Positions 8,121 through 63,051 of a stretch of 64,000 nucleotides of DNA are shown one piece after another. The DNA is from Chaetoceros tenuissimus (taxonomy: Eukaryota > Bacillariophyta > Thalassiosirophyceae > Chaetocerotales > Chaetocerotaceae), in contig BLLK01000075.1 of NCBI GenBank assembly GCA_021927905.1, forward strand, positions 434,001-498,000. The letters are read 5' to 3'. How positions within the stretch are numbered: position 1 is the stretch's first letter; every line of letters begins with the position of its first letter. A program made the position numbers and the translations under genes. The notes under the pieces are model-generated. The model saw nothing but the letters and a program-made list of their open reading frames with translations. It did no database searches and was not told where the DNA came from.

Positions 8121-8361
8121 ATTAAAGTATTGGTATTATGATTTCGGATGAATTCCAAAGAAAAAATGTAACTCTTTGAGAAGCTTCATTCGTGTAATAG
8201 GCGAATTTAGCCAGTTGAAGTTGTTGAAGGTATCTACCTTTGAAGGACGAACACAGGAACACCCAACTTGACTTGATTTCTCGCCAACTCTGGATGATTT
8301 CATGATTTCTACTTCTCATCTCACATGTGCCTTTCTTAATCCATATCACTGTCAAGATATC

Positions 8362-43525: not shown

Positions 43526-44013
43526 TCAAAGGAAGCTATGTAACATACATGTTCTTCCTTCTAGACAATATTTGCAGTCAATCTGCGCGGGTCGTTCGCA
43601 GCTTCGACAACGGAAACCTCCAATAGGATCCCATTCTCGTAGTTTACCGCAATGCTTACATGTTTTACAATCACGGCAATGCATACTTAATTTTCCTTTT
43701 TCTCTTTGTTGCATAGAGAATACCTCGCAGTTCTGTGGAATATTAACATTCCTTCTTAAGTCACCCCCCTCGCATTCGTGTGCATCAAAGCAACTGACAA
43801 AGACTTGGGCATTATTCTCTGATGGAATTTTTGCCTTGTTTGCATCATTTGCAATGCAAAAATACTTCTTACAAATACTACAGTACGTAGATGGTCTTGC
43901 AGGGAATCGCTTTTTTACATCTTTGATTGAATCCATAGACGTGTCATCATTGTATTCGATAAACTGGCAATTTGATTCAATTGTATTTCCACATGCAAAC
44001 GTATAATTGCACT
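43526..44013 (-). pseudogene. Cys-rich C-terminal region of Roc-CHAT 2, out of frame or spliced
   Basis: Immediately after the stop of Roc-CHAT 2, a shifted frame encodes KCNYTFACGN, NCQFIEYN, YCSICKKYFC and CFDAHEC, which aligns with the C-terminal module of Roc-CHAT 1 (CCNYKVEYES, GCKFMEN, YCDTCKMFVC, CWQIHRC). It continues with many CxxC pairs (CRDCKTCKHCG, CRSCERPAQIDCKYC) to a stop at 43526. Either a one-base frame change truncates the gene, or an 83 nt intron (CAA/GTAATA ... TTGCCAG/TTT, phase 0) joins the frames at the cost of the first Cys pair. The domain is probably zinc-binding. It is presented separately because the joining mechanism is unresolved. Confidence 0.6.
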
Positions 44014-47000
44014 TCAGTGCACACGTTGATTTTTACCCTTTATTACTTGACGCTGTTCGAAAACAAACTGGTCAGTTTGATATTCTTCAAAATCAATAGT
44101 AGCGCCGATCGTGCCTTTATCAATGCTGGTAGGCTTGTCTTCACGCGCGGGCATTTTCCTGGGATCGTCATTTCGTCTTCTCTTCTTTGATGCAGTTTCA
44201 TCGTTTCGAGTAGAATCTTGTGAAGAAATTTCAGAAATAATATCCTTATCATGCATTTCAACATCTGTAGCAATAGAATTACCCCAAAACTTCAAAACTC
44301 CTGCTACTAGATCTTTTGTGGTATCTGGGTCTGCAAATTTAAAGTTATGTTCTTTCATCATGAAGATTGTTTTGTTAAATGCTTCACGAAATAGTGTGGA
44401 TTGCTCTCTTTGTGAACAGAGACGTCCATAAAACTCTTCAGCAAATCTAAGAGCAGCTTCGTTATCAGCCTTAGAGTCCCAATAGATTATGCTTGCGTTG
44501 GGGAACTCTTTCTTTGCGATGCTTAGAACGTCTTCCGAATGACATGAATTGAAAACAATGCACTTGATTTGAGACTTGCATGAGTCATCTCTTAGAACAG
44601 CACGGACTTTTGTAGCTTCAAGAGACTTGCTATGGGCACAGAAATGGAGAACTTTGTAGGTATCAGACAGTAGGAAGAGGTTACTGATGTTTTCGAAATT
44701 TTCTTCTCCTTCCACAAAGTTCGCTTGCAGATTTGACCAGGCAAGTTTATATCGAATTATATCCTGTTCTCTCTTTAATTCAGAATCATCTTCTATACAT
44801 GCAACCATGTAGTTTGTTGGATTAGGAGGTTTTCCAAGTGTCTGTAATGCCGCAATTACTCGTTTCTTATCAAGGATTTTCGCTACACCTAATTCGGGTA
44901 AAATGCTATCCTTGAACTCAACTTCATCTTCATAATAGAAGTTGCGTAACGAGCTGATTGAAATATCTCCATCAGTTTCAAGTATGCACTTCACTATTTC
45001 CTCGGACCTCTTTGTCGAAAAAGTTTTATTAAAATGACTGAGAAGATCATTATATCGGATTTTGAACAAACGATCGTTCTTCATGCTTTCGTCGAATTTT
45101 GAAGCGCTCTGAAGTGATGGTTTCTTTGCCTTGTTTCGATACAATGGCCGAAGAACCTTGATATTATTGCTTATGACAATGATGTCTTCTTCATTTGTCA
45201 TTGATAATACAATTTCAAGGCGATTGTTGTAGATGCTACTATTCAAATTGCTGCACTCGCATTTTATAAGCTCAATAGGCTCTTCTAGCATATCTGGTTT
45301 GGTAGAAAATATAAATATCTTTTTCGCCGGCTGATCTAGAAGCAAAGAGTACATGTGATCACCCTGACCAAGTATGAATATGCATGCAGATGACATCAAA
45401 ATAGGAGGGCAATCATCAGAAACCAATGCATTCACTAGTCTACAATAAAATGGTAGCATCGCAAACCCATGTTTCTTCACATCTAAATGCCCTACTACTT
45501 GAAGCGCTTCAAAATAATTGGACATATCTTTTTTGGTAGTTGCAAAAGCTGACTCGGACACACTTGTCAATACTATTGGAACTGTAAAATAGTTTCCACA
45601 ATCTCCAAATATTCCTATTTCTACCAATAGGTCACTCAAGAAATCAAGATATTCATGATTTCCTATCCAGAGTTGACGCAACAACGGCATCTCTAAAATT
45701 CCTTCATCTTTTAGTCTTCTCCAAGATTTGCCATTATTCAATTCAATGGCACCTCTATCTCTTAAAAACCAATGGTACCGAAAGTCTCTCACTATGTAAG
45801 TTATCATATTGATAAGCCATTGGGGATCAAGAATACAGTACTCCTGTAGAGTGGGTACTTGATGAAAATAGAGAAAATGACCAATTCTATGGTACTGTTT
45901 CAAGAGCTCCCTGCATATCTCTACACTACTATTCGTATCAAAGGATTCACCTTCAAATACTCCACAGTCTGTCATGACTTGCATGACGGATAAAGTATCC
46001 TCATCCTCTGTAGAATTGGTAATTGGTATTATTGGCTGATCTAGAGAGATCTCAGTGAGTTTATCCATCGCTTTGAGCATTGAGATTGGAACTCGTTGGG
46101 CGATATCAAAGCCTCTATCATTGATTGCAGTATCGAGAAGTAGCTGTCGCAGTGCAAGGATGTTGCTGTCTGTAGGATTACTATTATCAATGGGCCAAAA
46201 GCACAAGTCCTGGGCCTTGTTATAGAGATTACACCTCGTGTCACTATTCCCCTCAGGAGAATAAGGAAGATGGATAAGGCCTGCAAGCGGTAGGTTTCTT
46301 TTCAAAAGCTCATGAATAATAACTAGTCCATCATCCTTTTCTCCTCTATACTTCAAAAATTCATCATAGTGAGTACCTACGAGAATCACAGGAGGATATT
46401 TAATGGAAGGGTCAGTAAATTCATCGCTATCTTCCTTGAGAGCATCGAACTTGATTGAAGATAGCCAGTACTTGAGATGTTCAAGAGCGTCCTCTTGGGA
46501 ATCTTTATCTAATAGTTTCATGATGTCGAAGACAACTACAAAGATACCCTCTCTTGATAAAAGCAGATTTTGAATACATCGAAATACTCGTTGACCACCA
46601 TTATCATAGATTGTAAACCGAATTGATTTGCCATCTTTGTTCATCAAGTCCATGTCTTTTATTTTCTGCGCTACCTCTTCTTCTTCTTTGTGCGGCCGTG
46701 GACTTTGATTTTTGGGCTCCGCAATATCCAAACTTTGCTGTTTGAAACGAATAGAAAGATCTGTAATAGAATCAAGCGTTGAGGTTGTTTCGTTATCATC
46801 AGTGCTGAGTTTTGACTCGAAATTTTCTTTTGGATCATCATAATATCTTCTTTCCTTGTTACCTTCAATCAAGTGTGTAGACAAAGATCGCAATGTGGAG
46901 TATTGATCTCTTTCCGCTTCTTGAAATGCTACTCCAGTAGCATTAGCATCTACTCTTGTGACATGAATACCAATATCAAAGATGGCAACCTCGGAAGTTT

Positions 47001-48279
47001 GAGAGCCTTTTGTACTTTTATGTTGCGATGAGAAAGGCAGTCCCTTGAGTGAGTTTATGGTCGAGGTTTTCCCATCTCTTCCTCTTCCGACAACTGTAAT
47101 TTTCGATCGCATCAGTGGCATCTTTTCTTGCCTTTCAGTAAAAGCTTTTACGTGTTCTTGTAGCAAATCGGAAATATATTCTTTGAGCTGTCTCAAATGG
47201 TGATCGGGTACATTTTCATTCTTCATAATTCTATTGATTTCGTCATAAGTTGGGTTAGATTCAAGCAATTTCGTAATCGCTTCGTCGATATTTGCTCCCT
47301 CATCTCCCAAGTTGATTGCACGAATATAATCGTGTATGAGTAGTGCAGATTCCATACTTTCCTTGCTCATATACTCTAGCATTTTTTCTTCTGATTCCAA
47401 ATCTCGACCACCAATAATTACAAAGATCTTTAGTAAGGCTAAATCGCCTACCATACATGCATAATTAAAAGCGGTTCGGTCTTTCTTATCCTTTAGTAGC
47501 AACAATTCCTTTCCCCCCATTGTAGCTAAATCCTCAATAGCACCGTAATCGGCAGTGTGATTGACAATTAAATAATGTAGAGCTGTAAGATTGCAATCGT
47601 CTTGAACGAAACAATTACCTTCGTTGGGTATAACTGTAGAGCTAGTAAAAGATGTATTTTCGCTACAACAGATTCTGTGTAGGGGATAATCATTGTGGCG
47701 GTTTAGGATCCATTCATTAATTTCTTCATTGTCATCATAAGAATTACTTTCATTGGCAAATGGAGAGTAGTCGAATAAAGCGGTATCTTTAATGACATAT
47801 CCGCCTAAACGAGAACTCCTAGGAACACTGAGAATGGTTAGACTCTTGCAGCCCTTTAAAGCATAGTCGCGAATTTCTTTACAAGCTTCCGGAACAAATA
47901 GAGAGAAGAGAGATTTGCAATCACTCAGAGCATTATTGCCAATGTACTCTAGATTTTTCCAGAAGAGGATAAAAACTAGTTCCTTGCAATCCCGACAAGC
48001 ATGAAATTCGAGCCTCTTTACGGAATCATTCATGAGAACTATCTTGACTCTCTTGCAGTCAAAAAAAGTAAAGTTAGGTATTACTTCTACTCCGGGTAGA
48101 ACTATAATCTGCTCCCATGACTCTCGTTCGTCTTTATCATAAACATTAAAGCGGCCAGTACTCCATAATGTCTCTCCATTGTAGAATAGAGTCTTCAGTC
48201 CGTTATACAACCGCACTCCAGGTCCTAGTTTTTCAATTTCCTCCCATTCTTCATCGGATAGTCTAGTCCTAAACTTCAT
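44014..48279 (-). CDS. LRR-ankyrin-Roc-COR-CHAT protein 2
   Basis: Single-exon frame of 1421 residues. Residues 1-190 are a BspA-type LRR module homologous to the stand-alone type II LRR genes downstream (GVRLYNGLKTLFYNGETLW, LPGVEVIPNFTFFDCK). An ankyrin-like stretch follows (LTALHYLIVN, DRTAFNYACMVGDLALLKIF; about 225-300). The Roc GTPase shows P-loop VVGRGRDGKTS near 398, YDNGGQR near 560 and GTHYDEF near 634. A COR-like part (about 790-900) has HRIGHFLYFHQV and CILDPQWLINMITYI. One copy of the helical repeat seen in protein 1 lies near 1090. The CHAT domain (about 1170-1330) has candidate His in VLHFCAHSKS and Cys in IVFNSCHSED. This is the layout of a sensor, switch and protease effector. 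Its Cys-rich tail lies just downstream in another frame. Confidence 0.87.
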   Translation of the reverse strand: MKFRTRLSDEEWEEIEKLGPGVRLYNGLKTLFYNGETLWSTGRFNVYDKDERESWEQIIVLPGVEVIPNFTFFDCKRVKIVLMNDSVKRLEFHACRDCKELVFILFWKNLEYIGNNALSDCKSLFSLFVPEACKEIRDYALKGCKSLTILSVPRSSRLGGYVIKDTALFDYSPFANESNSYDDNEEINEWILNRHNDYPLHRICCSENTSFTSSTVIPNEGNCFVQDDCNLTALHYLIVNHTADYGAIEDLATMGGKELLLLKDKKDRTAFNYACMVGDLALLKIFVIIGGRDLESEEKMLEYMSKESMESALLIHDYIRAINLGDEGANIDEAITKLLESNPTYDEINRIMKNENVPDHHLRQLKEYISDLLQEHVKAFTERQEKMPLMRSKITVVGRGRDGKTSTINSLKGLPFSSQHKSTKGSQTSEVAIFDIGIHVTRVDANATGVAFQEAERDQYSTLRSLSTHLIEGNKERRYYDDPKENFESKLSTDDNETTSTLDSITDLSIRFKQQSLDIAEPKNQSPRPHKEEEEVAQKIKDMDLMNKDGKSIRFTIYDNGGQRVFRCIQNLLLSREGIFVVVFDIMKLLDKDSQEDALEHLKYWLSSIKFDALKEDSDEFTDPSIKYPPVILVGTHYDEFLKYRGEKDDGLVIIHELLKRNLPLAGLIHLPYSPEGNSDTRCNLYNKAQDLCFWPIDNSNPTDSNILALRQLLLDTAINDRGFDIAQRVPISMLKAMDKLTEISLDQPIIPITNSTEDEDTLSVMQVMTDCGVFEGESFDTNSSVEICRELLKQYHRIGHFLYFHQVPTLQEYCILDPQWLINMITYIVRDFRYHWFLRDRGAIELNNGKSWRRLKDEGILEMPLLRQLWIGNHEYLDFLSDLLVEIGIFGDCGNYFTVPIVLTSVSESAFATTKKDMSNYFEALQVVGHLDVKKHGFAMLPFYCRLVNALVSDDCPPILMSSACIFILGQGDHMYSLLLDQPAKKIFIFSTKPDMLEEPIELIKCECSNLNSSIYNNRLEIVLSMTNEEDIIVISNNIKVLRPLYRNKAKKPSLQSASKFDESMKNDRLFKIRYNDLLSHFNKTFSTKRSEEIVKCILETDGDISISSLRNFYYEDEVEFKDSILPELGVAKILDKKRVIAALQTLGKPPNPTNYMVACIEDDSELKREQDIIRYKLAWSNLQANFVEGEENFENISNLFLLSDTYKVLHFCAHSKSLEATKVRAVLRDDSCKSQIKCIVFNSCHSEDVLSIAKKEFPNASIIYWDSKADNEAALRFAEEFYGRLCSQREQSTLFREAFNKTIFMMKEHNFKFADPDTTKDLVAGVLKFWGNSIATDVEMHDKDIISEISSQDSTRNDETASKKRRRNDDPRKMPAREDKPTSIDKGTIGATIDFEEYQTDQFVFEQRQVIKGKNQRVH

Positions 48280-50663: not shown

Positions 50664-51503
50664 ATGAGGGTCGCTACAGTTGATGGTCTCGTGACTCTCT
50701 TCTATGACAGATCGAAGGAACTGTTTAATCAAGAACTAAGTCGTGAGTGGTGGAATGCGTACTGTGATAATGATGGAAATTCAAATGATGATGACTGGAA
50801 AGAGTGGGATATATCTGACGAATGTAGAGAGTACTGGAGACAACGAATCTCTTGGCAGCAGATTATTGTTACCGATGGCGTCACTGAAATTCCTGATTCT
50901 ACATTCTATAATTGCTGGAACATCCAAAGAGTCATCTTTGCCGATACCGTTGTGAGAATTGAATACCAGGCTTTCTCCGATTGTAGAAGTCTTGTTTACA
51001 TCAAATTATCCATAAATTTGGAATATATTGGCATGTGGGCATTCTTTTTATGTAATCTTTCCAGTGTCTTTATTCCATCTTCGTGTAGAGTGATTCGTAA
51101 TGATGCATTTGCTAGCAATGAGAACTTGTCTATCTTCAGTGTTCCTCAGCATACTGAACTTGGTAGGGACATGATTCAATTTGCTGCCCTTGCAAAATCA
51201 TCTCCTTTTCAACTAAGAAGAGATGGTTGGTATGAACGGGAAGTAAACGACGACATGAATACATGGATCAAGAACATGAATCACGACGAGGTATTTTCCC
51301 TACATAGAGCATGTGCCTCGTTTCAGCCTTTGAAACAAGTTTTATACAATATCATTCAAGAGAAAGGACTCAAGGCCTTCAAAGTAAAGAATGACGTAGG
51401 AATCACTCCTTCGCAATACTTGAAGGAAAATCCGTATACTGAATTGACGGAAAAGGAAATCATTCACGATTATCTCATGAAATTGATGGGTGAAGTTGAA
51501 TAG
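50664..51503 (+). CDS. BspA-type LRR protein, type I (unit 1)
   Basis: Protein of 279 residues of the plus-strand LRR subfamily. The N-terminus MRVATVDGLVTLFYDRSKELF is shared by the subfamily and fixes the start, as does the leader CATAGAAGGGA just before it. Residues about 65-190 hold five LRR_5-like repeats (GVTEIPDSTFYNCWNIQRV, RIEYQAFSDCRSLVYIKL, YIGMWAFFLCNLSSVFIP, VIRNDAFASNENLSIFSVP). The C-terminal 85 residues (FSLHRACASFQP, ITPSQYLKENPYTEL) form an ankyrin-like helical cap common to the family. No signal peptide is seen, so probably cytosolic. Next to it lies the relic of a type II partner. A ligand-sensing or protein-binding role is inferred from the LRR fold only. Confidence 0.85.
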   Translation: MRVATVDGLVTLFYDRSKELFNQELSREWWNAYCDNDGNSNDDDWKEWDISDECREYWRQRISWQQIIVTDGVTEIPDSTFYNCWNIQRVIFADTVVRIEYQAFSDCRSLVYIKLSINLEYIGMWAFFLCNLSSVFIPSSCRVIRNDAFASNENLSIFSVPQHTELGRDMIQFAALAKSSPFQLRRDGWYEREVNDDMNTWIKNMNHDEVFSLHRACASFQPLKQVLYNIIQEKGLKAFKVKNDVGITPSQYLKENPYTELTEKEIIHDYLMKLMGEVE

Positions 51504-51539
51504 AATCAACTTGGCGGACAAGTGCTTCAACTTTATTCA

Positions 51540-51693
51540 AACATCAATCTTTCTACATAATATGTAACATAGAATAATGGTAGAATCAAGTTTAGATTAA
51601 ACTAGTTCTTCCATCACATCAAGAATAAAGTGTTCCATAATCTTTTCTTCTTTAAAAATTCTCTGTAAATGGACTCTGTGAGAGATACTGTGA
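51540..51693 (-). pseudogene. Relic 3' end of a type II LRR gene
   Basis: On the minus strand this segment reads KEEKIMEHFILDVMEELV followed by TAA, matching the C-terminus of the intact type II genes (KEEKIMKHYILDMMGELV), with the same 3' flank (GTTTAGATTAAACTA). Upstream the homology fades in a stretch still resembling SQYLSQNPFT, and the body of the gene is gone. It occupies the exact convergent position that type II genes hold in the other units. Confidence 0.75.
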
Positions 51694-51718
51694 AAAAGTA
51701 CTCTACCCGGTTTATTGG

Positions 51719-52786
51719 TTAGTATGTATACCACTTTCTCCAGATACACAAAGCCATCGTTCGACTTCCAGGTAAAGCTTCAAGATCCCTTTTCAAGCTC
51801 ATGGGGATTGCAGGTGTATTGTCATTAGGACTTGGCATACCAAAGTGAACAAGTTTTAATCCGTGTCTATGAGCATACTGATGCATCTCTTGAAAGTTGC
51901 CATATCCTTGATTTCCAATTGTAGCGTCATATGTGAATAGGATTCCATTCTCTTTTAGCATCAAAGAGGCTACATAAAGGACATCTTGCCAAATGTTTGG
52001 ATGTCGATGCTTCACCATTCTCAAAAGATTTGTACATGTTACTAAACCGCATTTACCAAACAAATCTTTGGATGCCAATATCGAAGAATCTAGAGTAACA
52101 TCCAATAATCTTGTATCTTTGAGCATCTGTTCAATAAGAATCTTTCTTTTTTGGCTATCTTGAAGAGCTTTTTCCATAGAAACCAATCGAGTTTCGTCTA
52201 ACCCCATGTGAGAATTCATTTTTACAATGTTTGCAGATTTAATACTGATAACTTTACCCGAACAAAGACAGATTGCATATCTTCCTTCATGTTGAGAGTC
52301 TTTCTTGACAAGAATACCCATTTTCCGATTAAAATTTTGATTCGTCAATCCTTGTAGTGAAATAGAATCGCCAATATAGATGACATTCCCATTGCAATCT
52401 TCAAAAAGAGGCATATGGTAATCTTTTGACAAGAAATTCAATGTAGACTTTGTTTCAATCTCAAGGGTCTCTTCTAATTCTGTAGCTATCCATCTAGTAT
52501 TACTGAAATATTCTCCTAAAGCTAGTGTCCATATTGCTGGCCCTGATCCAATATCCAAGGCAATCATATCTTCTTTTTGTCGATCCTCGTGATTTCCTCT
52601 TTTCCACAAAGGATACGGTTCGGCAGTTAATGCAAATTCAATCACATTTCTTAAAACAAAATAAGTCTGACCATTCGGTCCAAAATATGTTTCTCGATTG
52701 CTAAGTAAGTTCCAATCTGATCTTTGCCTATCTGCAAACATGAGTTTCATATATTCGTCTTGGGAAATCATTTCACTCATTGGCAT
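51719..52786 (-). CDS. Class I SAM-dependent methyltransferase-like protein with inserted beta domain
   Basis: Protein of 355 residues. Motif I of class I methyltransferases is clear (MIALDIGSGPAIWTLALGEY, about 75-94), followed by an acidic residue at the end of strand 2 (WIATELEE). Between strands 2 and 4 sits an inserted small beta module, GDSISLQGLTNQNFNRKMG and GRYAICLCSGKVISIK, of a type that occurs in several algal proteins. Later strands read FGKCGLVTCTNLLRMVKH and ENGILFTYDAT. The substrate is unknown. The gene lies inside the LRR array directly beside the type II relic, so its arrival or rearrangement may have destroyed that copy. No intron was needed. Confidence 0.75.
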   Translation of the reverse strand: MPMSEMISQDEYMKLMFADRQRSDWNLLSNRETYFGPNGQTYFVLRNVIEFALTAEPYPLWKRGNHEDRQKEDMIALDIGSGPAIWTLALGEYFSNTRWIATELEETLEIETKSTLNFLSKDYHMPLFEDCNGNVIYIGDSISLQGLTNQNFNRKMGILVKKDSQHEGRYAICLCSGKVISIKSANIVKMNSHMGLDETRLVSMEKALQDSQKRKILIEQMLKDTRLLDVTLDSSILASKDLFGKCGLVTCTNLLRMVKHRHPNIWQDVLYVASLMLKENGILFTYDATIGNQGYGNFQEMHQYAHRHGLKLVHFGMPSPNDNTPAIPMSLKRDLEALPGSRTMALCIWRKWYTY

Positions 52787-52816
52787 TGAGCTTCTTTGAT
52801 GTGAGGAAGTAGTGCT

Positions 52817-53090
52817 TTATTGGCTTTGATCTTTTTGCATGCAACATTTCTTGTACTTTTTACCAGATCCACAGATGCAGGAGTCATTTGGCTTCGTCTT
52901 CATTATTCCACGGAACGATTTCTTGCTGTGTTATTTGCAACTCTTATGAAGATGTATTCAAACTCGTAAGCAATTGCTTCCGAAAAACATTGATCGATGT
53001 TAGTTTGTTTTGTTCTGCGAAGATACTTTCGGAGAAACTTCAACATCTGGAAGAGGCTATTATTGATACTCAAATCCTCAAACGACTTTT
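52817..53090 (-). pseudogene. SEC-C motif relic
   Basis: From an ATG at 52903 a 28-residue frame reads NDSCICGSGKKYKKCC, a textbook SEC-C zinc-binding motif, and then stops at 52817. A neighbouring frame just upstream (FLRKYLRRTKQTNIDQCFSE, AYEFEYIFIRVANNTAR) looks coding but ends in stops next to it. Probably the broken C-terminal end of a SEC-C protein; alternatively a missed short exon of the adjacent methyltransferase gene. Confidence 0.4.
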
Positions 53091-53280
53091 ATTCCCCCGA
53101 TTGTTTTATAGTAGATACCTACGAGTATTATGGAGTTAGAGTGATCTATAAATACTGAGATAGAAATGATAGCTACATATTGCAACGATATTTCATATTT
53201 GATTCATATTTCATATCTAAAATTTCTGTTAGAATTCGCTTGGCATTTATGGAGATTAGACTTTTGTCTCTTTGAACAGG

Positions 53281-53333
53281 GGAATGAGGAGGTCATTGTT
53301 AATTAGAAATAGCCTACTTACAGAACTAAATGC
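53281..53333 (+). promoter_or_regulatory. Conserved upstream element of LRR type I gene (unit 2)
   Basis: Pattern GGAATGAGGxxGTCATTGTT...AGAAATxxCxTACTTACAgAACTA about 200 bp before the start codon at 53491. Related copies precede the type I genes of units 3, 4 and 5, some with a full GACGTCA core. Confidence 0.5.
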
Positions 53334-53490
53334 AAAATAAAATGAAGCAGAATCTTCGACTCGACTTCTTGACACCTATCACATACACATGTCACATGTA
53401 CTATATACTCTCCCAAAAACTCATAGCCTAGTGACTTTGTTGTAAGTGAATACATCACATCACTAGTCTTCATTCATCTAGTAGAAAGAA

Positions 53491-54342
53491 ATGAGGGTCG
53501 CTACAGTGGATGGTCTCGTGACTCTCTTTTATGACGGCTCGAAGGAACTGTTTGATAGAGAACTTAATGATGAATGGTGGAAGGAATTCCGTGATCAAGG
53601 GCGCCATGATGATGATAATGATGAGATAGATAATTGGGAAGAATGGAACCTATCAGTCCAATGCAAGAAATATTTTAGAGAGCGACTGTCTTGGCAGCAG
53701 ATAATTATTATAGAAGGCGTCACTGAAATCCCCGAATGGACTTTTGCTATATGCTGGAACATCAATAGAGTGATCTTTGCAAATACAGTTTTGAGAATTA
53801 AAGGGAATGCTTTCTTGAGATGCCGAAGCCTAGTCTACGTCAAATTATCCATTAATTTGGAATATATTGGTTCTACAGCATTCTATGGATGTAATCTCTA
53901 CAGTATCTTCGTTCCACCGACATGCAGAGAGATTTGTGCTTATGCATTTTATCTTAACAAGAGCTTGTCGATTTTGAATGTTCCTCAACACGTTGAACTT
54001 GGTGGATGGATAATTCAATACACATTGCTTGCAAAAACATCGCATTTGGATGTAACTACAGATGGTTGGTATGGACAAGAATTAGATGACGACATGAATA
54101 CATGGATCAAAAACATGAATCATGACGAGACATTTTCCCTACATAGAGAATTTGCCTCCCTCCAGCCTTCGAAACAAGTCGTATACAATATTATTCAACA
54201 GAAAGGACTCAAAGCTTTCAAAGTAAAGAATAGCGCAGGAATTGCTCCTTCACAGTACCTGTATAAAAATCCATACACTGAGTTGACGGAAAAGGAAATT
54301 ATTCACGATTATCTCATGAAGATGATGGGTGAATGTGGATAG
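53491..54342 (+). CDS. BspA-type LRR protein, type I (unit 2)
   Basis: Protein of 283 residues. It has the type I N-terminus MRVATVDGLVTLFYDGSKELF, an Asp-rich loop (about 40-52), five LRR_5-like repeats (EGVTEIPEWTFAICWNINRV, RIKGNAFLRCRSLVYVKL, YIGSTAFYGCNLYSIFVP) and the ankyrin-like C-terminal cap (FSLHREFASLQP, IAPSQYLYKNPYTEL). The cap has Glu-Phe where relatives have Ala-Cys (HREF versus HRAC). It is convergent with the type II gene at 54459, 116 bp apart; this pair is the basic repeated unit of the array. Confidence 0.86.
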   Translation: MRVATVDGLVTLFYDGSKELFDRELNDEWWKEFRDQGRHDDDNDEIDNWEEWNLSVQCKKYFRERLSWQQIIIIEGVTEIPEWTFAICWNINRVIFANTVLRIKGNAFLRCRSLVYVKLSINLEYIGSTAFYGCNLYSIFVPPTCREICAYAFYLNKSLSILNVPQHVELGGWIIQYTLLAKTSHLDVTTDGWYGQELDDDMNTWIKNMNHDETFSLHREFASLQPSKQVVYNIIQQKGLKAFKVKNSAGIAPSQYLYKNPYTELTEKEIIHDYLMKMMGECG

Positions 54343-54458
54343 AATACCGAAGTAGATCGTTATCATAGTGATCGAGTGCTTTGACTTTATTCAAAACTCA
54401 AGATTTCTACTCATACATTTGTAACGCAGGATAATAAAATAATAGAACCAAGTTTAGA

Positions 54459-55274
54459 TTAAACTAACTCACCCATCATATCAAGAATAAAGTGTTTCAT
54501 AATCATTTCCTCCTTGGTGGTGGTAAATGGATTTTGCAAGAGATATTGCGATGCCGTAACTCCAACACTATCTGCTTTTTTGAACGCACCGATACCTTGT
54601 CTTTTGATTATATCTAGAATGACTTCCTCCGCTGGATTAAAATCTGCACATGCACGATGCAAAGAGAATTGATTATCTGCGAGTCTGTTTTTCATCCATT
54701 CATTCACTTCTTCATTGTTTTCCTCATATTGGCCATTAGTACCAGTATTAAATGGAGAAGCTTCCATCAATGCTGTCCTTGCAATTACATTGTTACCAAG
54801 TTGGGTGTGTTGAGGGACATGAAATATGATCAACTTGAAACAAGTTCTAAATGCTTCATTACCAATCTCACTACACAATGGCGGTATAAAGATTGAAGTC
54901 AGAGAATCACAGTTAGAGAATGCAGCTACTCCGATGAATTCAAGATTTCTTGAAAGTTTTACAAACTCGAGACTCCTGCAATAAGCAAAAGCTCTAAATT
55001 CAATCCTTCTCACTGTATCGGCCATGAGGACAATCTTTACATTCTTACAATAAACGAAAGCATCTTCAGGAACCACTTCAACTCCGGGAAGAACAATTAT
55101 GACTTCCCAAGATCGTCTCTCTCTTGTATCATAGATTAGAGGACGACTCCAACCCATTCCTTCCCATAGTTTCTCTCCGTTGTAAAAGAGAGTCATCTTT
55201 CCTTGATACATTCTCACTCCGGGAATGAACCGCTGCCATTCTTCGGTCTGAACCCTCATTTGCAATGCACACAA
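54459..55274 (-). CDS. BspA-type LRR protein, type II (unit 2)
   Basis: Protein of 271 residues from the first ATG; the family start MRVQTEEW lies five residues later at 55259, so either may be used. The N-terminal block FIPGVRMYQGKMTLFYNGEKLW is shared with Roc-CHAT 2. Five LRR_5-like repeats follow (LPGVEVVPEDAFVYCKNVKIV, RIEFRAFAYCRSLEFVKL, FIGVAAFSNCDSLTSIFIP, EIGNEAFRTCFKLIIFHVP), then the cap FSLHRACADFNP and VTASQYLLQNPF. Cys occupies the fixed LRR position in each repeat. No export signal. It differs from type I chiefly in the first 60 residues. Confidence 0.86.
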   Translation of the reverse strand: MCALQMRVQTEEWQRFIPGVRMYQGKMTLFYNGEKLWEGMGWSRPLIYDTRERRSWEVIIVLPGVEVVPEDAFVYCKNVKIVLMADTVRRIEFRAFAYCRSLEFVKLSRNLEFIGVAAFSNCDSLTSIFIPPLCSEIGNEAFRTCFKLIIFHVPQHTQLGNNVIARTALMEASPFNTGTNGQYEENNEEVNEWMKNRLADNQFSLHRACADFNPAEEVILDIIKRQGIGAFKKADSVGVTASQYLLQNPFTTTKEEMIMKHFILDMMGELV

Positions 55275-55950
55275 AGAAATTCAATGTGAAGACTGAGGAG
55301 ACTGTGCTTATAAGCCTTGTAGGCAGTAGCACTACTTGCCTCTCAATTCTGTGATGTACGTGTATGTCTGTAGAGTGAATTCCTGTTTTTGCAATTTCTT
55401 TGTAGCTGTGAATACCTCCCTAAAGCTAACCGAATCGGTGCGTACTATAAGTACAGTAGTGAGAAAAGATAGAGATGATGGTGAGGTGCAACAATGGTTG
55501 CTTCTTTTTTTTAGTTTGCTGATAGAAGAGAGATAGCAGTCGGGAGATAGCCTTCTTCTTGAAAAAGCAAAGTGGGAAGTCATTGTTATTTGTTTAGAAA
55601 TGGCCTTACATACAAAACTATTTAAGAATTGTTCCCTAGCTAATCCAGTTTACAATGGACAAACAGCATCGAGGATGTAGTAAACCCTAAAGAATCAGAT
55701 CGCAAGGTTTGTTTTGTGAATCATCTATCTATTGGAGATTTGACTTTTACTTTTCTGAAAAGGAGGAATGAGGACGTCATTGTTGAGAAATGGGCTCACT
55801 TACAAAACTATTGGAAAAACGAAAAATGGAGGAGGCAAACGATGAGAACGAGAAGAAGCATTATTTAACGAGTACTTTGATTGTGACTAGTGACTTTTGT
55901 TGTAAGTAAATACATCAAATCACTAGTCTTCATTCATCTACTAGAAGGAA
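55275..55950. promoter_or_regulatory. Divergent promoter region between units 2 and 3
   Basis: A 676 bp spacer that holds two copies of the conserved LRR upstream element: 55572-55623 (GAAGTCATTGTT...ATACAAAACTA) and 55755-55814 (GAGGACGTCATTGTT...CTTACAAAACTA). The second is about 180 bp from the unit 3 start. The doubling suggests nested duplication. Confidence 0.5.
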
Positions 55951-56784
55951 ATGAGGGTTGCTACAGTGGATGGTATCGTGACTCTCTTTTATGACGGGAT
56001 GAAGAAACTCTTCATTCCAGATCTAAACTATGAGTTTTGGAATGCGTACTGTGATAACAATGGTGAGGAAGATGAATGGGAATCATGGCCTCTATCCGAC
56101 GAATGCAAAAACTACTTTAGAGAGCGACTTTCTTGGCAGCAGATAATCATTGTGGAAGGGGTCACTGAAATTCCAGATCGTACTTTTATGAAATGCTGGA
56201 ACATTAAGAGAGTCATCTTTGCTGATACTGTTGTGAGAATCAAAGGACATGCTTTCGAGAACTGTAAAAGCCTTGTTTACGTCAAAATATCTATCAATCT
56301 AGAATATATTGGAAAGTATGCATTCAGTGAGTGTGATCTTTCCAGTGTCTTTATTCCACCGTCGTGTAGAGAGATTTGTAACGGGGCATTTGGATTCAAT
56401 GCAAATTTGTCGATATTGAGTATTCCTCGACATGTTGAACTTGGTAGATACATGATTCAAGATACAAAACTTGCCGAAGCATCTCCTTTTGAAGTAGCTG
56501 AAGGTGGCTATTACGACAGCGAAGTGAACGACGACATGAATATATGGATCAAAAATATGAATCATGACGAGGCATTCACTCTTCATAGAGCATGTGCCTC
56601 GTTTCAGCCTTTGAAACAAGTTTTATCCGCAATCATTCAAGAGAAAGGACTGAAAGCTTTTAGAAAAGAGAATAATGCAGGAATCGCTCCTTCGCAGTAC
56701 TTGACTGAAAATCCATATACTGAGTTAAAGGAGAAGGAACTCATTCACGATTATGTCATGAAGATTATGGGTGAAGTTGAATAG
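55951..56784 (+). CDS. BspA-type LRR protein, type I (unit 3)
   Basis: Protein of 277 residues with the type I N-terminus (MRVATVDGIVTLFYDGMKKLF). LRR_5-like repeats EGVTEIPDRTFMKCWNIKRV, RIKGHAFENCKSLVYVKI, YIGKYAFSECDLSSVFIP and EICNGAFGFNANLSILSIP are followed by the cap FTLHRACASFQP and IAPSQYLTENPYTEL. The first 60 residues and the surface positions of the repeats vary most from the other copies. It is convergent with the type II gene at 56897, 112 bp apart. Confidence 0.86.
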   Translation: MRVATVDGIVTLFYDGMKKLFIPDLNYEFWNAYCDNNGEEDEWESWPLSDECKNYFRERLSWQQIIIVEGVTEIPDRTFMKCWNIKRVIFADTVVRIKGHAFENCKSLVYVKISINLEYIGKYAFSECDLSSVFIPPSCREICNGAFGFNANLSILSIPRHVELGRYMIQDTKLAEASPFEVAEGGYYDSEVNDDMNIWIKNMNHDEAFTLHRACASFQPLKQVLSAIIQEKGLKAFRKENNAGIAPSQYLTENPYTELKEKELIHDYVMKIMGEVE

Positions 56785-56896
56785 AGTAAGCAAGGTAGCA
56801 TATTATCATAAAAGATGAGTGGACTTTATTCAAAATTAAAGATTTTTACTCATACATTTGCAACGCAGGATAATTAAATAAAGAACCAAGTTTAGA

Positions 56897-57706
56897 TTAA
56901 ACTAATTCACCCATCATATCTAGAATATAGCGTTTCATAATCTTTTCTTCCTTAATGTCAGTAAAGGGATTTTGTGAAAGATATTGCGATGCACTAACTC
57001 CAGCATTATCTTCTTTTCTGAACGTGCCAATACCTTGTCTTTTTACTATATTGTAAATGACTTCCTCTGCTGGAATATGAGAGGCGCAAGCTCGATGCAA
57101 AGAGAATTGATTATCTGCATGTCTGTTTTTAATCCATTCATTCACTTGCTCATTGTCCTCATCTTGGTGTCGGCCATCATTGTCAGTAGGGAATGGAGAT
57201 GCTCTTGCTAGTATCGTACCATCAACAACAGCATGGCCAAGTTCAGTGTTTTCAGAAACAGAAAAGATGATAAGCTTTTTACAACCTTGAAATGCCCAAT
57301 GACCAATCTCTCTACACAATGGCGGTACAAAGATTGATGTGAATTTGCAGCTAGTAAATGCATTCTTTCCAATGTATTCCAGATTTCTTGAAAGTTTTAC
57401 AAATTCAAGACTACCACAACAATAGAAAGCTGCGTCTTCAATCCTCCTGACAGAATCGGCCATAATAACAGTCTTGACACCCATACACCAATGGAAAGTA
57501 TGCGCAGAAATCACTTCAACTCCTGGTAGAATAACAATGGCTTCCCACGAGTTCCTTTCTTCATAATCATAAGCAAAAGGTTGACCAAAAAGTTTCTCTC
57601 CGTTATAAAAGAGAGTCTTCTTTCCTTTGTACATCCGCACTCCAGGAATGAACCGCCGCCACTCCTCCATCTGAACTCTCATTTGAAGTATACTTGATAG
57701 ACTCAA
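56897..57706 (-). CDS. BspA-type LRR protein, type II (unit 3)
   Basis: Protein of 269 residues, N-terminus MSLSSILQMRVQMEEWRRF; the family start MRVQ is at residue 9. It has FIPGVRMYKGKKTLFYNGEK, LRR_5-like repeats (LPGVEVISAHTFHWCMGVKTV, RIEDAAFYCCGSLEFVKL, YIGKNAFTSCKFTSIFVP, EIGHWAFQGCKKLIIFSVS), and the cap FSLHRACASHIP and VSASQYLSQNPF. The eight-residue MSLSSILQ extension is shared with the unit 4 type II gene and absent from unit 2, so units 3 and 4 are closer relatives. Confidence 0.86.
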   Translation of the reverse strand: MSLSSILQMRVQMEEWRRFIPGVRMYKGKKTLFYNGEKLFGQPFAYDYEERNSWEAIVILPGVEVISAHTFHWCMGVKTVIMADSVRRIEDAAFYCCGSLEFVKLSRNLEYIGKNAFTSCKFTSIFVPPLCREIGHWAFQGCKKLIIFSVSENTELGHAVVDGTILARASPFPTDNDGRHQDEDNEQVNEWIKNRHADNQFSLHRACASHIPAEEVIYNIVKRQGIGTFRKEDNAGVSASQYLSQNPFTDIKEEKIMKRYILDMMGELV

Positions 57707-57982
57707 TAGAGAATGAGGCGACTGTGCTCAGTAGTCTCACTAGATGCTCAATTCCAAGTGAGATACTGAGATGAGTAGAGAATAGACGGGAGACGAGAGA
57801 TGAAAAGATCGCATCATCATGTTTTAATTTCTAGCTACTTCCCTAGCCAATCAAGTTTACCATGATGGGAATTTTACACTAGTACATAAGCATCGAGAAT
57901 GTAGTGAATGAGATAGCGACGATGATAGTACAATGGTTATTTACTTTTTCATTCATCAGTTTCTTTTTGGTTAGAATCATCC
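57707..57982. other. Upstream flank duplicated at unit 4/5
   Basis: This flank matches 62576-62871 closely (for example CTAGCTACTTCCCTAGCC and TTCTTTTTGGTTAGAATC). The match is broken only by the transposon that starts at 57987. Confidence 0.7.
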
Positions 57983-57986
57983 ACTT

Positions 57987-60571
57987 TCATCGGCGAAATC
58001 AAATTTTTCTCGAGCCAAATATCACCTAGCTGGTTAAAATTTTTGGGTGGCTAGCTGCTCTTTTGAGTGGCTCGCCCATAGTGAAGCTGAAAAAAGCTGG
58101 TTTTTTCGAGCCTTCCGACAGACCCTCTAGTGATGCCAAGGAGTTGATGAAATGACTCCTAGCTTCACCAACCTTTCCATTACTACCCTCGACCAATTTT
58201 CATAGGTCACCTGTCTTTATTGGGGCATATATAGACAGGTTTTTGCTACTCTAGGTTTAGGCTAGGTTTTAGGCTAGGAATTATGTGTTTTTCGCACCTA
58301 GTGGACTTGTATTTTCAATCTTCCTTCTTCCTCTATCTTTAAACAACACACTTTCTCCTCCTATAAGCTCATCTCCATGCATAGGAAGCGCTCGCGTTAT
58401 TGTGGAGCTTTCGGATCTGGAAAGATAAGAAAAAGGAATATTCATGTCTTCATTTCATGTCATGTCTCCATCTTCCTTCTTCTAACACGTCGTCCTCAAT
58501 CTCTAAATTTGCCTTTGTTCATTCAGTCCATAGGAACTACTTCACTGCTCCTATAACATTAGAATTCAACCTTGAATACAGCGCTTTCTTTACTCTATGT
58601 AAAGTTTACAATGTATGTAAGTTAAAATCTTATTCATTTCATAAGAAAGAATTTCATCTCAACAAAAAGACTTCATCGAACTAATCAGTACTAGCTCTTT
58701 TTTTTGCAGATCATAATTATGGAGAAATGGACACAGACGATTGGAAAATGTAGAACCAATAACCAATGATTTTCTGTGATGTGCAGTAGAAGTTCAAATT
58801 ATTCTTGGTACGGATGATGCTTCTATCCCATTGTCGATACAGCTACGAAAAGAAAATAATTAGGTCCATACAGATCCTATTGTATTTTACAGAATATCCT
58901 GCCTTTCGATTATCAGCTTAACCCAATACGTAACAACTAGTCTCCCGACAGCCAAGATGTCAGCATAGATGCGATTCAATGTTTTGTGCATGATGGTGGA
59001 AAAGATTTTATTATGTTAGATGATGATGGAAAAGATATTATTATGCTATGCAACCGACATGGCATCTCAGAACTCCACGAAGCTTGCTTGTCAAAATTCG
59101 ACTGGGAATAAAATGTAATTAAGTTATTGATAGATAACGCTGGTCATGAGCTCCTCAAGATAAAAGTAATGAGGGGTAAACAGCATTTTCTTATTCGAGT
59201 CAAAGCAAACAATCAAAGTTGTCCCTGGTATAATATTATGATTCCATAATGGTGTCATTTATAATAGACTTTTTAAATATCATCATTTGTATATTTTCTT
59301 CTTTTCTCGTCCTCATATGTTAGTGCCTATTTGAACCATATCTAGTAGCCTTTACTTTTCCGAAATGTTCTTAGAAATGCTTTCAGCTTTGTACACCTGC
59401 TCTTCTTCTTGTGCTTCACAATCATTTGATTTAATTCTTAAAATCTGTTTCAGTATTGCTGCTAATAGACTCTTTTATGATGAGACAATGAGGCTTCGAA
59501 GTCTTAAGACTGTTTTGATCTGAAGGATGAAGAATCATGAGCATCATCAATGTCCATATTTCCTTCGTCGTCAGACAAATGTGCTTCAGAGCTACTATCC
59601 CAATTAAACTTTTGATTCTTGGAACATTGGTTCTGAGTTTCCCATGGATCTTTGAGTTTGTCTGTTCTTCAACCTTGTCGTCGGCATTACTAGCACCATC
59701 TTCCATTCCACCATTATCAATGGTATTGTCGTCCACATCTTTTTCATCACGTTTTCTATACCAGCCGCTTTATCTTCTATTACTACTTGAATTGGCTCTA
59801 TCCAACTCTTTACCAATGCAAACACTGGTTGTTTCTGGATAAATTCACTCTCATCGTCATGATATAGCATATTACAAATTTCACTCGGCAATTCGAATCA
59901 TTATGTGATGATGACTGGTCAAGAATAAATGACAGTATGGAAAGTATGATCTTAATATTCTATTGTCCAACCTTTTAGGCATTTACCGATATTTCTTGCA
60001 TTACACAGTAATAATGGAAATACGTGACCTTTCAAGAAGTTTAACTTGTGGAACGTATCCCTTTGCTTTCTGAATGCCATTAATGAAAGCCTAGTTACGT
60101 CTATTGTAAAAATATAGTTTAGAAGTTGTCAACATATTACATAGAAAGAAACTTGATGTTCTTACTTACCTGAATTCGTTGAAAGAATCAAAGCCATTGC
60201 ATTCCCTGTCTTGTAACCAACCAAAATGTTACTGTTCAACCTATCGCAAATACTAACCATAATTATATATATGTTAATGTATGGGCAAATTGGCCTCTAT
60301 TGGGAACCTGCATTTGTTGCAAAATATCATAGTTACAGTTGGTACCAATGCATACAAATTGGTCGAGGGTAGTAATAGAAAGGTTGGTGAAGCTAGGGAG
60401 TCATAACTAGGTTTCATGATGGTGTATCCTAGGGTAACGAGAGGCTCGAAAAAAACATCTTTTTTCAGCTTCACTATGGGGGGCGAGCCACTCAAAAGTG
60501 CAGCTAGCCACCCAAAAATTTTAACCAGCTAGGTGATATTTGGCTCGAGAAAAATTTGATTTCGCCGATGA
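57987..60571. mobile_element. DNA transposon with long terminal inverted repeats inserted in the LRR array
   Basis: A 2585 bp element bounded by inverted repeats of about 213 bp (57987-58199 and 60357-60571). The tips are TCATCGGCGAAATC and its complement. A 4 bp direct repeat ACTT flanks it (57983-57986, 60572-60575), and the paralogous unit has one uninterrupted ACTT at 62872-62875 with the same flanks, so the insertion point is exact. Inside are only broken pieces: an ankyrin-like stretch on plus (LCNRHGISELHEAC near 59045, KLLIDNAGHELLKIK near 59122) and minus-strand frames at 59431-59891 of unknown family. No DDE transposase was recognised, so it is probably non-autonomous. The superfamily is unassigned. 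Confidence 0.85.
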
Positions 60572-60594
60572 ACTTGTAGCTACCTTTGGTACTT

Positions 60595-60657
60595 TTCGAA
60601 AAGGGGGGATGGAGACGTCATTGGTCAGAAAAGCCTGCTTACTTACAAAACTATTTA
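60595..60657 (+). promoter_or_regulatory. Conserved upstream element of LRR type I gene (unit 4)
   Basis: GGAGACGTCATTGGTCAG followed by CTTACTTACAAAACTATT, about 200 bp before the unit 4 start. Almost identical to the unit 5 copy and separated from its original upstream flank by the transposon. Confidence 0.55.
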
Positions 60658-60813
60658 AAAAAAATCAAAAAACAGAGACACGCGGAGTGAGAGCGCGTGA
60701 GATGAGAGATGAAAACAACACAGCACTCTCTCTCTCTCTCTCTGATGCCATCGCCTAAATGATTTGATTTAAGTGAATACATAAACCCACTACAGTCATC
60801 TCATAGAAAGGAA

Positions 60814-61648
60814 ATGAGGGTGGCAAATGTCGAAGGCCTGGTGACTCTCTTTTATGACGGATCGAAGGAACTCTACAATAGAGAACTAAATCGCGAGTGG
60901 TCAGGTGTGTACTTTAATAATCGAAAGGGAGATAGATAATTGGGAGTCATGGAATCTATCTGACGAATGTAAGAGGTATTGGAGAAAGCGACTATCTTGG
61001 CAGCAGATAATAGTGGAAGAAGGGGTCACTGTAATTCTCGCAGGAACTTTCCAATATTGCTGCAATGTAAAAAGAGTAATCTTTGCAAACACAGTCATCA
61101 GAATTGAAAGATTTGCTTTCTATAATTGTGAAAGCCTTGTTTACGTCAAATTACCCATCAATTTGGAATACATTGCAGAGTATGTATTCTACAAATGTAA
61201 TCTTTACAGTATCTTCATTCCACCATCATGTAGAGAGATTCGTAATGAGGCATTTAGATGCAACGAGAACTTGTCTATCATGAATGTGCCGCAGGATACT
61301 CAACTTAATTATTACATTGTTCTGAGCACGGCGCTTGCAAAAGCATCACCTTTTGAGGTAGATAGAAATGGTTGGTACTACTACGAAGTAAATGACAATA
61401 TGAATACATGGATCAAAAACATGAATGACAGTGAAGAATTTTCTTTGCACAGAGCGTGCTCCTCATTCCAGCCTTTGAAACAAGTTGTATACAATATCAT
61501 TCAAGAGAAAGGACTCAAAGCTTTTAGAGAAAAGAATAGTGTAGGAATCACTCCTTCACAATACCTGAAGGAAAATCCATACACTGAACTGACGGAAAAA
61601 GAAATCATTCACGATTATCTCATGAAATTGATGGGTGAAGGCGAATAG
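60814..61648 (+). pseudogene. BspA-type LRR gene, type I (unit 4), frameshifted
   Basis: The family start at 60814 gives MRVANVEGLVTLFYDGSKEL and runs about 42 codons to a stop (TAA) near 60940. The rest of the gene continues in another frame from about 60930 (EIDNWESWNLSDECKRYW) to 61648, with all LRR repeats (EGVTVILAGTFQYCCNVKRV, RIERFAFYNCESLVYVKL, YIAEYVFYKCNLYSIFIP) and the cap FSLHRACSSFQP and ITPSQYLKENPYTEL intact. A single small indel in the Asp-rich loop (around 60905-60935) explains it. A downstream start could still make a 247-residue protein lacking the N-terminal block. The transposon lies 243 bp upstream. Confidence 0.75.
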
Positions 61649-61771
61649 AATAACCAAGGTAGCATATTATCATAAAAGATGAGTGGCCTTCATTCAAAAG
61701 TGAAAATTTCTACTCATACATTTGCAACGCAGGATAATAAAATAATAGAAGCAAGTTTAGATTAAACTAAC

Positions 61772-62575
61772 TCACCCATCATATCTAAGAATATAGTGTT
61801 TCATAATCTTTTCTTCCTTGATGTCGGTAAATGGGTTTTGGGAGAGATACTGCGATGGCGTAACTCCAACACTATCTGGACTCTTCAAAGCTTTCAAATC
61901 TCGTCTTTTTACAATATCATAAATGACTTCTTCTAATGGATTGTAAGAGGCACATGCTCGATGCAAAGAGAATTGATTATCTGCGAGTCTGTTTTTAATC
62001 CATTCATTCACTTCCTCATCGTTCTCATACCGACCACGAACATTAGTATCAAATGGAGATGCTTTTATAAGTGCCGTATTAGCAATGACATCTTCATAAA
62101 GTGTAGTGTGTTGAGGAACACTCAAGATGATCAACTTTGAACAGCCATCCAATGCACATATATCAATCTCTCTACAGGATACCGGTACAAAGATTGAATT
62201 CAAAGATTCACAGAATAAGAATGCATATGCTCCAATGCTTTCAATGCTTGTTGAAAGTTTGACAAACACGAGACTGTAACAACGATAGTAAGCACTTCTC
62301 TCAATTCTTTCTACATTATTGGCCATGATTACTGTCTTGACATTCTCACATCGATAGAAAGTCATGTAAGGAATCACTCTAACTCCTGGCAATACAATGA
62401 TGACTTCCCACGAGTTTCGTTCTTCTTTATCATAGATCAGAGGATTCAGAATACCAAAAAGTTTCTCTCCGTTATAAAAGAGAGTCTTCTTTCCTTTGTA
62501 CATTCGCACTCCAGGAATGAACCGACGCCACTCCTCCATCTGAACTCTCATTTGAAGTATACTTGATAAACTCAA
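61772..62575 (-). CDS. BspA-type LRR protein, type II (unit 4), altered C-terminus
   Basis: Protein of 267 residues with the MSLSSILQ extension and FIPGVRMYKGKKTLFYNGEK. LRR_5-like repeats LPGVRVIPYMTFYRCENVKTV, RIERSAYYRCYSLVFVKL, SIGAYAFLFCESLNSIFVP and EIDICALDGCSKLIILSVP are followed by the cap FSLHRACASYNP and VTPSQYLSQNPF. One extra base near 61793 changes the family ending ILDMMGELV to ILRYDG and ends the protein a few residues early. The change is probably tolerable, so the gene is kept as coding. It is convergent with the frameshifted type I gene, 123 bp apart. Confidence 0.8.
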   Translation of the reverse strand: MSLSSILQMRVQMEEWRRFIPGVRMYKGKKTLFYNGEKLFGILNPLIYDKEERNSWEVIIVLPGVRVIPYMTFYRCENVKTVIMANNVERIERSAYYRCYSLVFVKLSTSIESIGAYAFLFCESLNSIFVPVSCREIDICALDGCSKLIILSVPQHTTLYEDVIANTALIKASPFDTNVRGRYENDEEVNEWIKNRLADNQFSLHRACASYNPLEEVIYDIVKRRDLKALKSPDSVGVTPSQYLSQNPFTDIKEEKIMKHYILRYDG

Positions 62576-63051
62576 TAAATAATGAGGCGACTGTGCTCAG
62601 TAGTCTCACTAGATGCTCAATTCTCAATCAATCAAGTGAGATACTGATGTGAAAAGAGAATAGACGGGAGACGAGAGATGAAAAAGATCGCATCATCATG
62701 TTTTAATTTCTAGCTACTTCCCTAGCCAATCAAGTTTACCATGATGGAAATTTTACATACTCGTCACTAGTAAATAAAAGCATTGAAAATGAAGTGAATG
62801 AGATGCGACGATGATAGTACAATGGTTATTTACTTTTTCGATAATTAGTTTCTTTTTGGTTAGAATCATCCACTTGCAGCTACCTTTGGTACTTTTCGAA
62901 AAGGGGGATGGAGACGTCATTGGTCAGAAAAGCCTGCTTACTTACAAAACTATTTTAAAAACAAAACCAAGAAAACAACGAACAACGAAAAGCACTAGTA
63001 ACTTTGATGCAAGTGAGACATAACCCTTTAGATTCATTTAGTAGAAAGGAA
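62576..63051. promoter_or_regulatory. Divergent promoter of units 4 and 5, with empty transposon site
   Basis: A 476 bp spacer paralogous to 57707-57982 plus 60572-60813. ACTT at 62872-62875 is the uninterrupted site of the 2.6 kb transposon. The LRR upstream element lies at 62895-62955 (GGAGACGTCATTGGTCAG...CTTACAAAACTATTT), about 140 bp before the unit 5 start. Confidence 0.7.

Follow-up and report, generated by a model that had tools for sequence, protein, structure and literature searches.

A Roco-type candidate receptor with a predicted CHAT protease domain in the diatom Chaetoceros tenuissimus

CHAT proteases act as effectors in a number of described systems. CHAT is the effector of Craspase, in which mutation of the CHAT cysteine abolishes cleavage (PMC9729208), and plays this part too in a fungal receptor that activates gasdermin (PMC12881547), while both CHAT and TIR have been named key defence effectors in bacterial systems diversified by diversity-generating retroelements (PMC10907252). 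Here, we describe an open reading frame (ORF) from Chaetoceros tenuissimus, a diatom for which a 41 Mb assembly of strain NIES-3715 has been published (PMC8613185). This frame, hereafter called the main ORF, occupies positions 44014..48279 on the minus strand of a stretch of 64,000 nucleotides (the window; positions 434001-498000 of contig C59, BLLK01000075.1), and genome-wide statements below refer to 41 Mb in 68 contigs. In a single chain, it combines leucine-rich repeats (LRR), ankyrin-like repeats, a Roc-COR GTPase switch and a C-terminal domain predicted to be a CHAT protease. An initial annotation, made from the sequence without database searches, had suspected a diatom as the source of the DNA, and this origin is supported.

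The closest sequence-profile and fold match of the diatom CHAT is SAVED-CHAT (PDB 8tl0), whose sensor we take to be a cyclic-nucleotide SAVED domain, in contrast to the LRR and Roc-COR of the diatom protein. TPR-CHAT (Csx29) of Craspase resembles the diatom protein as a sensor-activated CHAT protease with a His-Cys dyad, whose two residues lie about 3-7 A apart in TPR-CHAT, but it relies on an RNA-guided partner, and the sections available of that report mention no GTPase switch (PMC9729208). The fungal NLR-CHAT and TPR-CHAT regulators of gasdermin offer a eukaryotic receptor-CHAT logic like that of the diatom, although the protease is N-terminal in NLR-CHAT (PMC12881547). In the diatom protein it is C-terminal. 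Fungal CHAT receptors use a STAND NTPase rather than Roc-COR, and in LRRK2 and the bacterial Roco protein of C. tepidum the LRR-Roc-COR core is followed by a kinase or by nothing at the C-terminus. Among stramenopiles, group 3 of the brown-algal ROCO proteins has been described as LRR-ROC-COR with a C-terminal peptidase, IPR009003 (PMC11378527). A stramenopile Roco protein ending in a protease was thus already known, and the novelty lies in the CHAT effector. We assume IPR009003 to be the entry of PA-clan serine peptidases, hence not of the caspase fold. No earlier description of Roc-COR joined to a CHAT protease domain was found in the literature searched, among the matches listed; a paper on LRRK2 in the brain (PMC11804522) does contain both terms, its CHAT presumably being choline acetyltransferase. 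The pairing of a Roco receptor with CHAT as effector, observed in this diatom and also among cyanobacteria, appears to be new.

Domain architecture of the main ORF

The main ORF is a single uninterrupted frame of 1421 amino acids starting with ATG, as initially annotated. On the basis of the ORF listing, Pfam and, for the C-terminus, the tests described below, its order of LRR, ankyrin-like repeats, Roc, COR, helical segment and CHAT can be assigned with near certainty. All coordinates given in this section lie on the minus strand. The N-terminal repeats are of the BspA type (LRR_5, residues 58-155, 47815..48108; Pfam E 2.8e-13), with 4fs7 and 6mlx as relatives in the PDB. They are followed by degenerate ankyrin-like repeats (residues 201-287, 47419..47679), for which the annotation held through the paralogs L003 and L005, where Ank_2 is significant (Pfam E 1.1e-6 and 1.2e-5, respectively), the match in the main ORF being weak (E 0.026).

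The Roc GTPase, recognized above the Pfam cut-off (E 1.7e-10), keeps its signature motifs intact. Inspection located the P-loop GRGRDGKT at residues 398-405 (47065..47088), the G3 motif DNGGQ at residues 559-563 (46591..46605) and the G4-like motif GTHYD at residues 635-639 (46363..46377), all three already named in the initial annotation; a long insert separates G1 from G3 (residues 405-559). Across the ten copies of this protein in the genome, GTH[YF]D is found in all, and GxxxxGKT in nine, which are all those whose frame spans it, the frame of L033 beginning downstream. The COR-like segment was likewise borne out: COR-A (residues 790-871, 45667..45912; E 1.3e-8) follows Roc directly, as expected for a Roco protein, at 35.3 bits, which is exactly the curated cut-off, and COR is above the cut-off in L003 (37.3 bits), L032 and the metagenomic protein P0073. 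The region presumed from its position to be COR-B (residues 901-1035, 45175..45579) has no Pfam match in the main ORF. Between COR and CHAT lies a segment of five helices (residues 1070-1150, 44830..45072), seen at residues 2-78 of an AlphaFold model of residues 1070-1345 and, by eye, duplicated in P0003 and L033. By eye, this segment is also SAM-like; the match behind a SAM identity is weak, SAM_1 reaching just E 0.29 in one paralog, L002.

Neither NACHT nor NB-ARC occurs among the Pfam matches of the main ORF at E<=10, the switch being Roc instead. The description of the protein as NLR-like consequently stands by analogy only, as a repeat sensor, a switch and an effector in one chain, and the claim that sensor, GTP switch and protease share one polypeptide is sound as anatomy. 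Peptidase_C14 (PF00656, the metacaspase/caspase family) has no Pfam match in the main ORF and five separate matches elsewhere in the genome. NCBIfam returned only generic GTPase matches, PADLOC returned none, and the tRNA search was empty.

Identity and predicted activity of the C-terminal domain

The assignment of the last domain (residues 1153-1335, 44275..44823, minus strand) to CHAT meets a first difficulty in Pfam. The CHAT model (PF12770) has no match at E<=10 in the main ORF and none at E<=0.001 over the whole genome, and the best of the scanned own-genome copies, L033, reaches 21.0 bits (E 2.5e-4) against a cut-off of 24. A search against this model had been put forward with the initial annotation as the first way to check the domain, and by that standard the outcome speaks against CHAT, while more sensitive tests favour it. 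The likeness could then be due to chance, with two short motifs lying within an unrelated lineage-specific domain.

A profile built from the CHAT domains of the ten paralogs was searched against 177635 PDB sequences and returned at E<=10 a sole match, 8tl0 (E 2.7e-4), deposited as 'CHAT domain-containing protein' and corresponding to the SAVED-CHAT of a type III CRISPR system (PMC11417357). UniRef already gives the name 'CHAT domain-containing prot...' to P0072, the NCBI model of L033. The ten-paralog alignment also drew 11 loci, all bacterial, from the genomes of prokaryote species; Pfam CHAT is above its cut-off in eight of the nine scanned, a figure to be read with the selection bias of a set fetched by a pattern from the diatom alignment. 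The ninth, L042, lacks a match and was retained in the alignments (A3 and A5), from which L041, whose frame is split, was excluded; L041 and L047 were left out of the Pfam scan. Among these bacterial loci, Pfam shows CHAT fused to SIR2-like domains in the two from Enhygromyxa salina (L037, L039), and to an AAA_35 domain in the cyanobacterial L038 and L040.

When the profile of the diatom domain was aligned by hhalign with a profile of 10 of the 11 bacterial CHAT-type domains, the probability was 99.2 (E 8.8e-20), the best of 100 column-shuffled controls reaching 1.3. A hidden Markov model (HMM) built from bacteria only ranked the main ORF first among 1767 ORFs of the window and the fetched own-genome loci (E 1.1e-15); its 16 rows with E <1e-7 reduce to 11 distinct genes after removal of overlaps, and nothing else fell below E 1. 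In the reverse direction, a single Leptolyngbya CHAT searched against the genome gave five matches at E<=10, each individually weak, which are four Roco-CHAT genes and a detached CHAT gene (best E 0.0012; main ORF third, E 0.016). The AlphaFold model of residues 1070-1345 has a caspase-hemoglobinase fold, and its best fold match is again 8tl0, according to VIA-align, which re-ranks only the top 1000 of Foldseek; a model built without the bacterial rows gives the same verdict. Since the profile, reverse-profile and predicted-fold tests agree, the domain is held to be CHAT despite the Pfam miss, and chance resemblance, to which the Pfam result and the weak single-sequence matches would lend themselves, is contradicted to the point of being scarcely credible.

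The predicted catalytic residues are His1216 (44632..44634), the second histidine of VLHFCAH, and Cys1246 (44542..44544), within FNSC, both on the minus strand. The annotated CHAT with its His and Cys is upheld. In the model, each lies two residues past one of two consecutive core strands, and both are invariant in the ten own-genome Roco copies and in the 17 aligned rows, bacteria included. A catalytically silent CHAT, acting as a scaffold or dimerisation surface in a Roco protein which signals by assembly and whose output is a TIR domain or a Cys/His-rich tail, would agree with the appending of TIR in two of the 11 own-genome members. It would also agree with P0075, a related Roc-COR-CHAT protein of 1557 amino acids from a metagenome that has, by eye, lost the second His and the Cys, and with the report by Kaur et al. 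that about 70% of the caspase domains in one bacterial effector position are inactive (PMC7159879). However, both His, the Asn, the Cys and the Ser of the CHAT motifs are invariant in 10/10 own-genome copies although the domain averages only 34% identity, which makes a silent domain unlikely. An active cysteine protease is probably what the main ORF encodes. In P0075, CHAT is followed by a part that looks, by eye, like RelA/SpoT, and then by TPRs.

The diatom family and its relatives

Protein and Roc searches concur on ten long Roc frames (>700 amino acids) in the genome, all of the Roco-CHAT family and all with a CHAT domain. No frame with any other Roc match exceeds 433 amino acids, a size in keeping with ordinary small GTPases. 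As the searches ignored introns, the true number may be higher, and the family thus comprises at least ten genes in addition to one detached CHAT gene, whereas at most four ROCOs per species have been reported for the diatoms and other SAR species searched (PMC11378527). One paralog is recorded as Chaetoceros tenuissimus CTEN210_18392. A second Roco-CHAT gene of the window, P0003 (27579..32354, minus strand, 1591 amino acids), lacks the LRR and reads, from Pfam and the bacterial-only HMM, as Roc, COR, two helical segments, CHAT and a Cys/His-rich tail, the duplication and the tail being seen by eye. The detached gene (L052, 1965-3755 of that locus, minus strand) lies on contig C59, about 16 kb from the main ORF; by HMM, reverse search and tail pattern, it encodes the helical segment, CHAT and the Cys/His-rich tail, while LRR, Roc and COR are all absent.

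The copies resemble each other most in Roc (mean identity 55-63%) and COR-A (54%). Next come the ankyrin-like repeats (46%), the LRR (41%, a figure lowered by the LRR-less P0003) and CHAT (34%), while the helical segment (29%) and the presumed COR-B region (30%) differ most. Beyond CHAT, TIR_2 is added in L005 (E 3.4e-8) and L033 (E 6e-5, below the cut-off). A Cys/His-rich tail, for which no Pfam family was matched, is found under a strict pattern in L002, L003, L004, L031, L034 and L052, as well as in P0006, the NCBI model of L032, and, in a looser form and by eye, in P0003. Since the paralogs carry a TIR or a Cys/His-rich tail past CHAT, the far C-terminus is, as far as sequence comparison can tell, a swappable module.

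In the main ORF, the homologous tail begins directly past the stop in another frame (43526..44032, minus strand; pattern search). This arrangement, together with the frame breaks of L033 and L034, could mean that the main ORF is a decaying or truncated copy. The LRR-to-CHAT frame is nevertheless intact with all its motifs, and a splice may join the tail, introns being outside the models; decay is accordingly judged improbable.

One LRR_5 ortholog group counts 385 paralogs in C. tenuissimus (PMC8613185). LRRs of this type also occur joined to a KAP NTPase, in L035 (75-3794, minus strand; Pfam KAP 1.1e-32), in L036 (889-3435, minus strand; Pfam KAP 6.8e-6) and, by eye, in L018 (172-2286, minus strand), which, from these matches, is a putative second switch type on the same LRR sensor. 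In the window, positions 50664-63894 hold eight short ORFs of about 250-300 amino acids, mostly on alternating strands, which carry by eye the LRR_5 module of the family and resemble short LRR_5 genes elsewhere in the genome. At the other end of the window, two near-duplicate HSF-like DNA-binding ORFs (3536-4687, minus strand; 8302-9318, plus strand) flank a protein-kinase-like ORF (5307-8120), by eye. On contig C13 (286000-295000, L054), TIR_2 matches lie in large frames that look, by eye, like multi-span membrane proteins, near Cys-rich repeats.

Outside this genome, a protein search with residues 1050-1345 returned only the protein itself and one paralog, a word filter limiting what this says of other diatoms. 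A search with the full alignment was overrun by LRR_5 proteins, and one with the Roc-COR-CHAT alignment covered proteins of about 480-1530 amino acids and 8000 candidates, a reach that does not establish absence from other named diatoms. The full architecture of the main ORF, with its His-Cys dyad, is present in the metagenomic P0007 (1597 amino acids), which is sister to L003 in the CHAT tree (100% ultrafast bootstrap). P0073, also metagenomic, is Roc-COR-CHAT-TIR and keeps the dyad by eye, with Pfam CHAT at just 0.2. A different family is represented by P0076 (EukProt, 1584 amino acids), in which a thioredoxin-like domain, Roc and COR (with EF-hands inside) precede a Peptidase_C14.

A COR survey of the class to which the Leptolyngbya genome belongs gave matches at E<=1e-10 in 43 genomes out of 145. 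Among 85 COR loci (83 from this survey plus two extra, one of these myxobacterial), five from four genomes (L079/L088, L095, L096, L097 and L107) encode LRR-Roc-COR-CHAT in one frame, a lower bound, as the first 32 loci had flanks of about 1.5 kb and a long frame containing the Roc G3 motif is seen in 82. The idea that a CHAT on a Roco protein is unusual holds for eukaryotes within the reach of the searches, but such proteins also occur in cyanobacteria. These proteins have the same domain order as the main ORF and a CHAT with HFSGHG and LNAC, above the Pfam cut-off in 5/5; unlike the diatom protein, their LRR is classical, and no ankyrin or TIR match was obtained (thresholds 0.01 and 1e-5). 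They are not five independent cases, given the near-identical pairs L095/L096 and L079/L107. In the CHAT tree, which is unrooted, spans 154 columns and has many weak nodes, they sit among Roco-less cyanobacterial CHATs (nearest-node support 71-72). The Roc-COR tree places the genes of the diatom with P0007, P0073, P0074 and P0076 (SH-aLRT 99-100), apart from the cyanobacterial Rocos, among which the Roc-CORs of these five proteins fall; this tree has 97 rows, a midpoint root and a fast search, its bacteria are almost exclusively cyanobacteria, and it includes six of 14 outside proteins (P0064, P0075, P0078-P0082 and P0084 are absent). Because both trees separate diatom from cyanobacterial proteins, independent fusions are favoured, within these limits of sampling and rooting.

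A possible receptor for defence or cell death

The main ORF may encode a Roco receptor that acts inside the cell and carries its own caspase-fold protease; to this reading, with the mechanism that follows, we give a probability of about 0.6. The LRR and ankyrin-like repeats would sense a ligand or an altered host protein, and sensing would, as in known Roco proteins, change whether the Roc-COR switch is in its GTP or GDP state and how it dimerises. The C-terminal CHATs would then be released or juxtaposed, allowing the predicted dyad to cleave a substrate, and this cleavage would trigger a response to viruses or stress, with regulated cell death as its likeliest form. That the protease is GTP-gated appears likely. 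A role as a defence or death receptor, for which the odds seem even, is proposed by analogy, because CHAT is used in this way elsewhere (Craspase, fungal gasdermin control, bacterial defence) and because the family is expanded and modular, with the LRR missing in P0003, TIR added in L005 and L033, and L052 detached.

Several observations weigh against this proposal, in addition to the Pfam result and the loss of catalytic residues in P0075. An AlphaFold model of residues 300-1345 has a mean pLDDT of 49.9 and is poor outside the CHAT half, so that it does not support a coupling between switch and protease. The main ORF lacks, in frame, the tail of most of its paralogs. An RNA-seq study of virus infection in C. 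tenuissimus uses none of the terms 'leucine', 'LRR', 'CTEN210' and 'caspase' in its main text (PMC12305248). The protein could also serve non-immune signalling, as a GTP-regulated, separase-like processing protease in stress acclimation, the sexual cycle or cell-cycle control. The family, however, has many copies, is modular and has expanded in its lineage; its C-terminal modules, TIR among them, are exchanged, and related LRR genes are numerous. This pattern speaks rather for a defence role, seeming closer to that of recognition than of housekeeping families, and we regard the non-immune alternative as having a minor but real chance.

On a wider scale, we tentatively suggest, as the less probable part of the picture, that diatoms and related algae have a receptor system, built on Roco proteins, which drives regulated cell death against viruses. 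In it, lineage-expanded LRR-Roc-COR proteins would use CHAT or CHAT plus TIR effectors, independently of the cyanobacterial assembly, and the short LRR paralogs, several hundred in number, could form a reservoir of recognition modules. If LRR-Roc-COR-CHAT fusions arose in parallel in cyanobacteria and in a diatom, Roc-COR would look like a natural gate for caspase-fold effectors, and the Roc-COR-Peptidase_C14 protein P0076, from another eukaryote, points likewise. It is still an open question how unicellular phytoplankton detect viruses and enter upon their own death, and the molecular components of such death have been called unknown in a study of metacaspases (PMC8455989). As two viruses kill C. 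tenuissimus in culture and infection RNA-seq has been published (PMC12305248), its ten candidate receptors with a predicted catalytic dyad would be testable.

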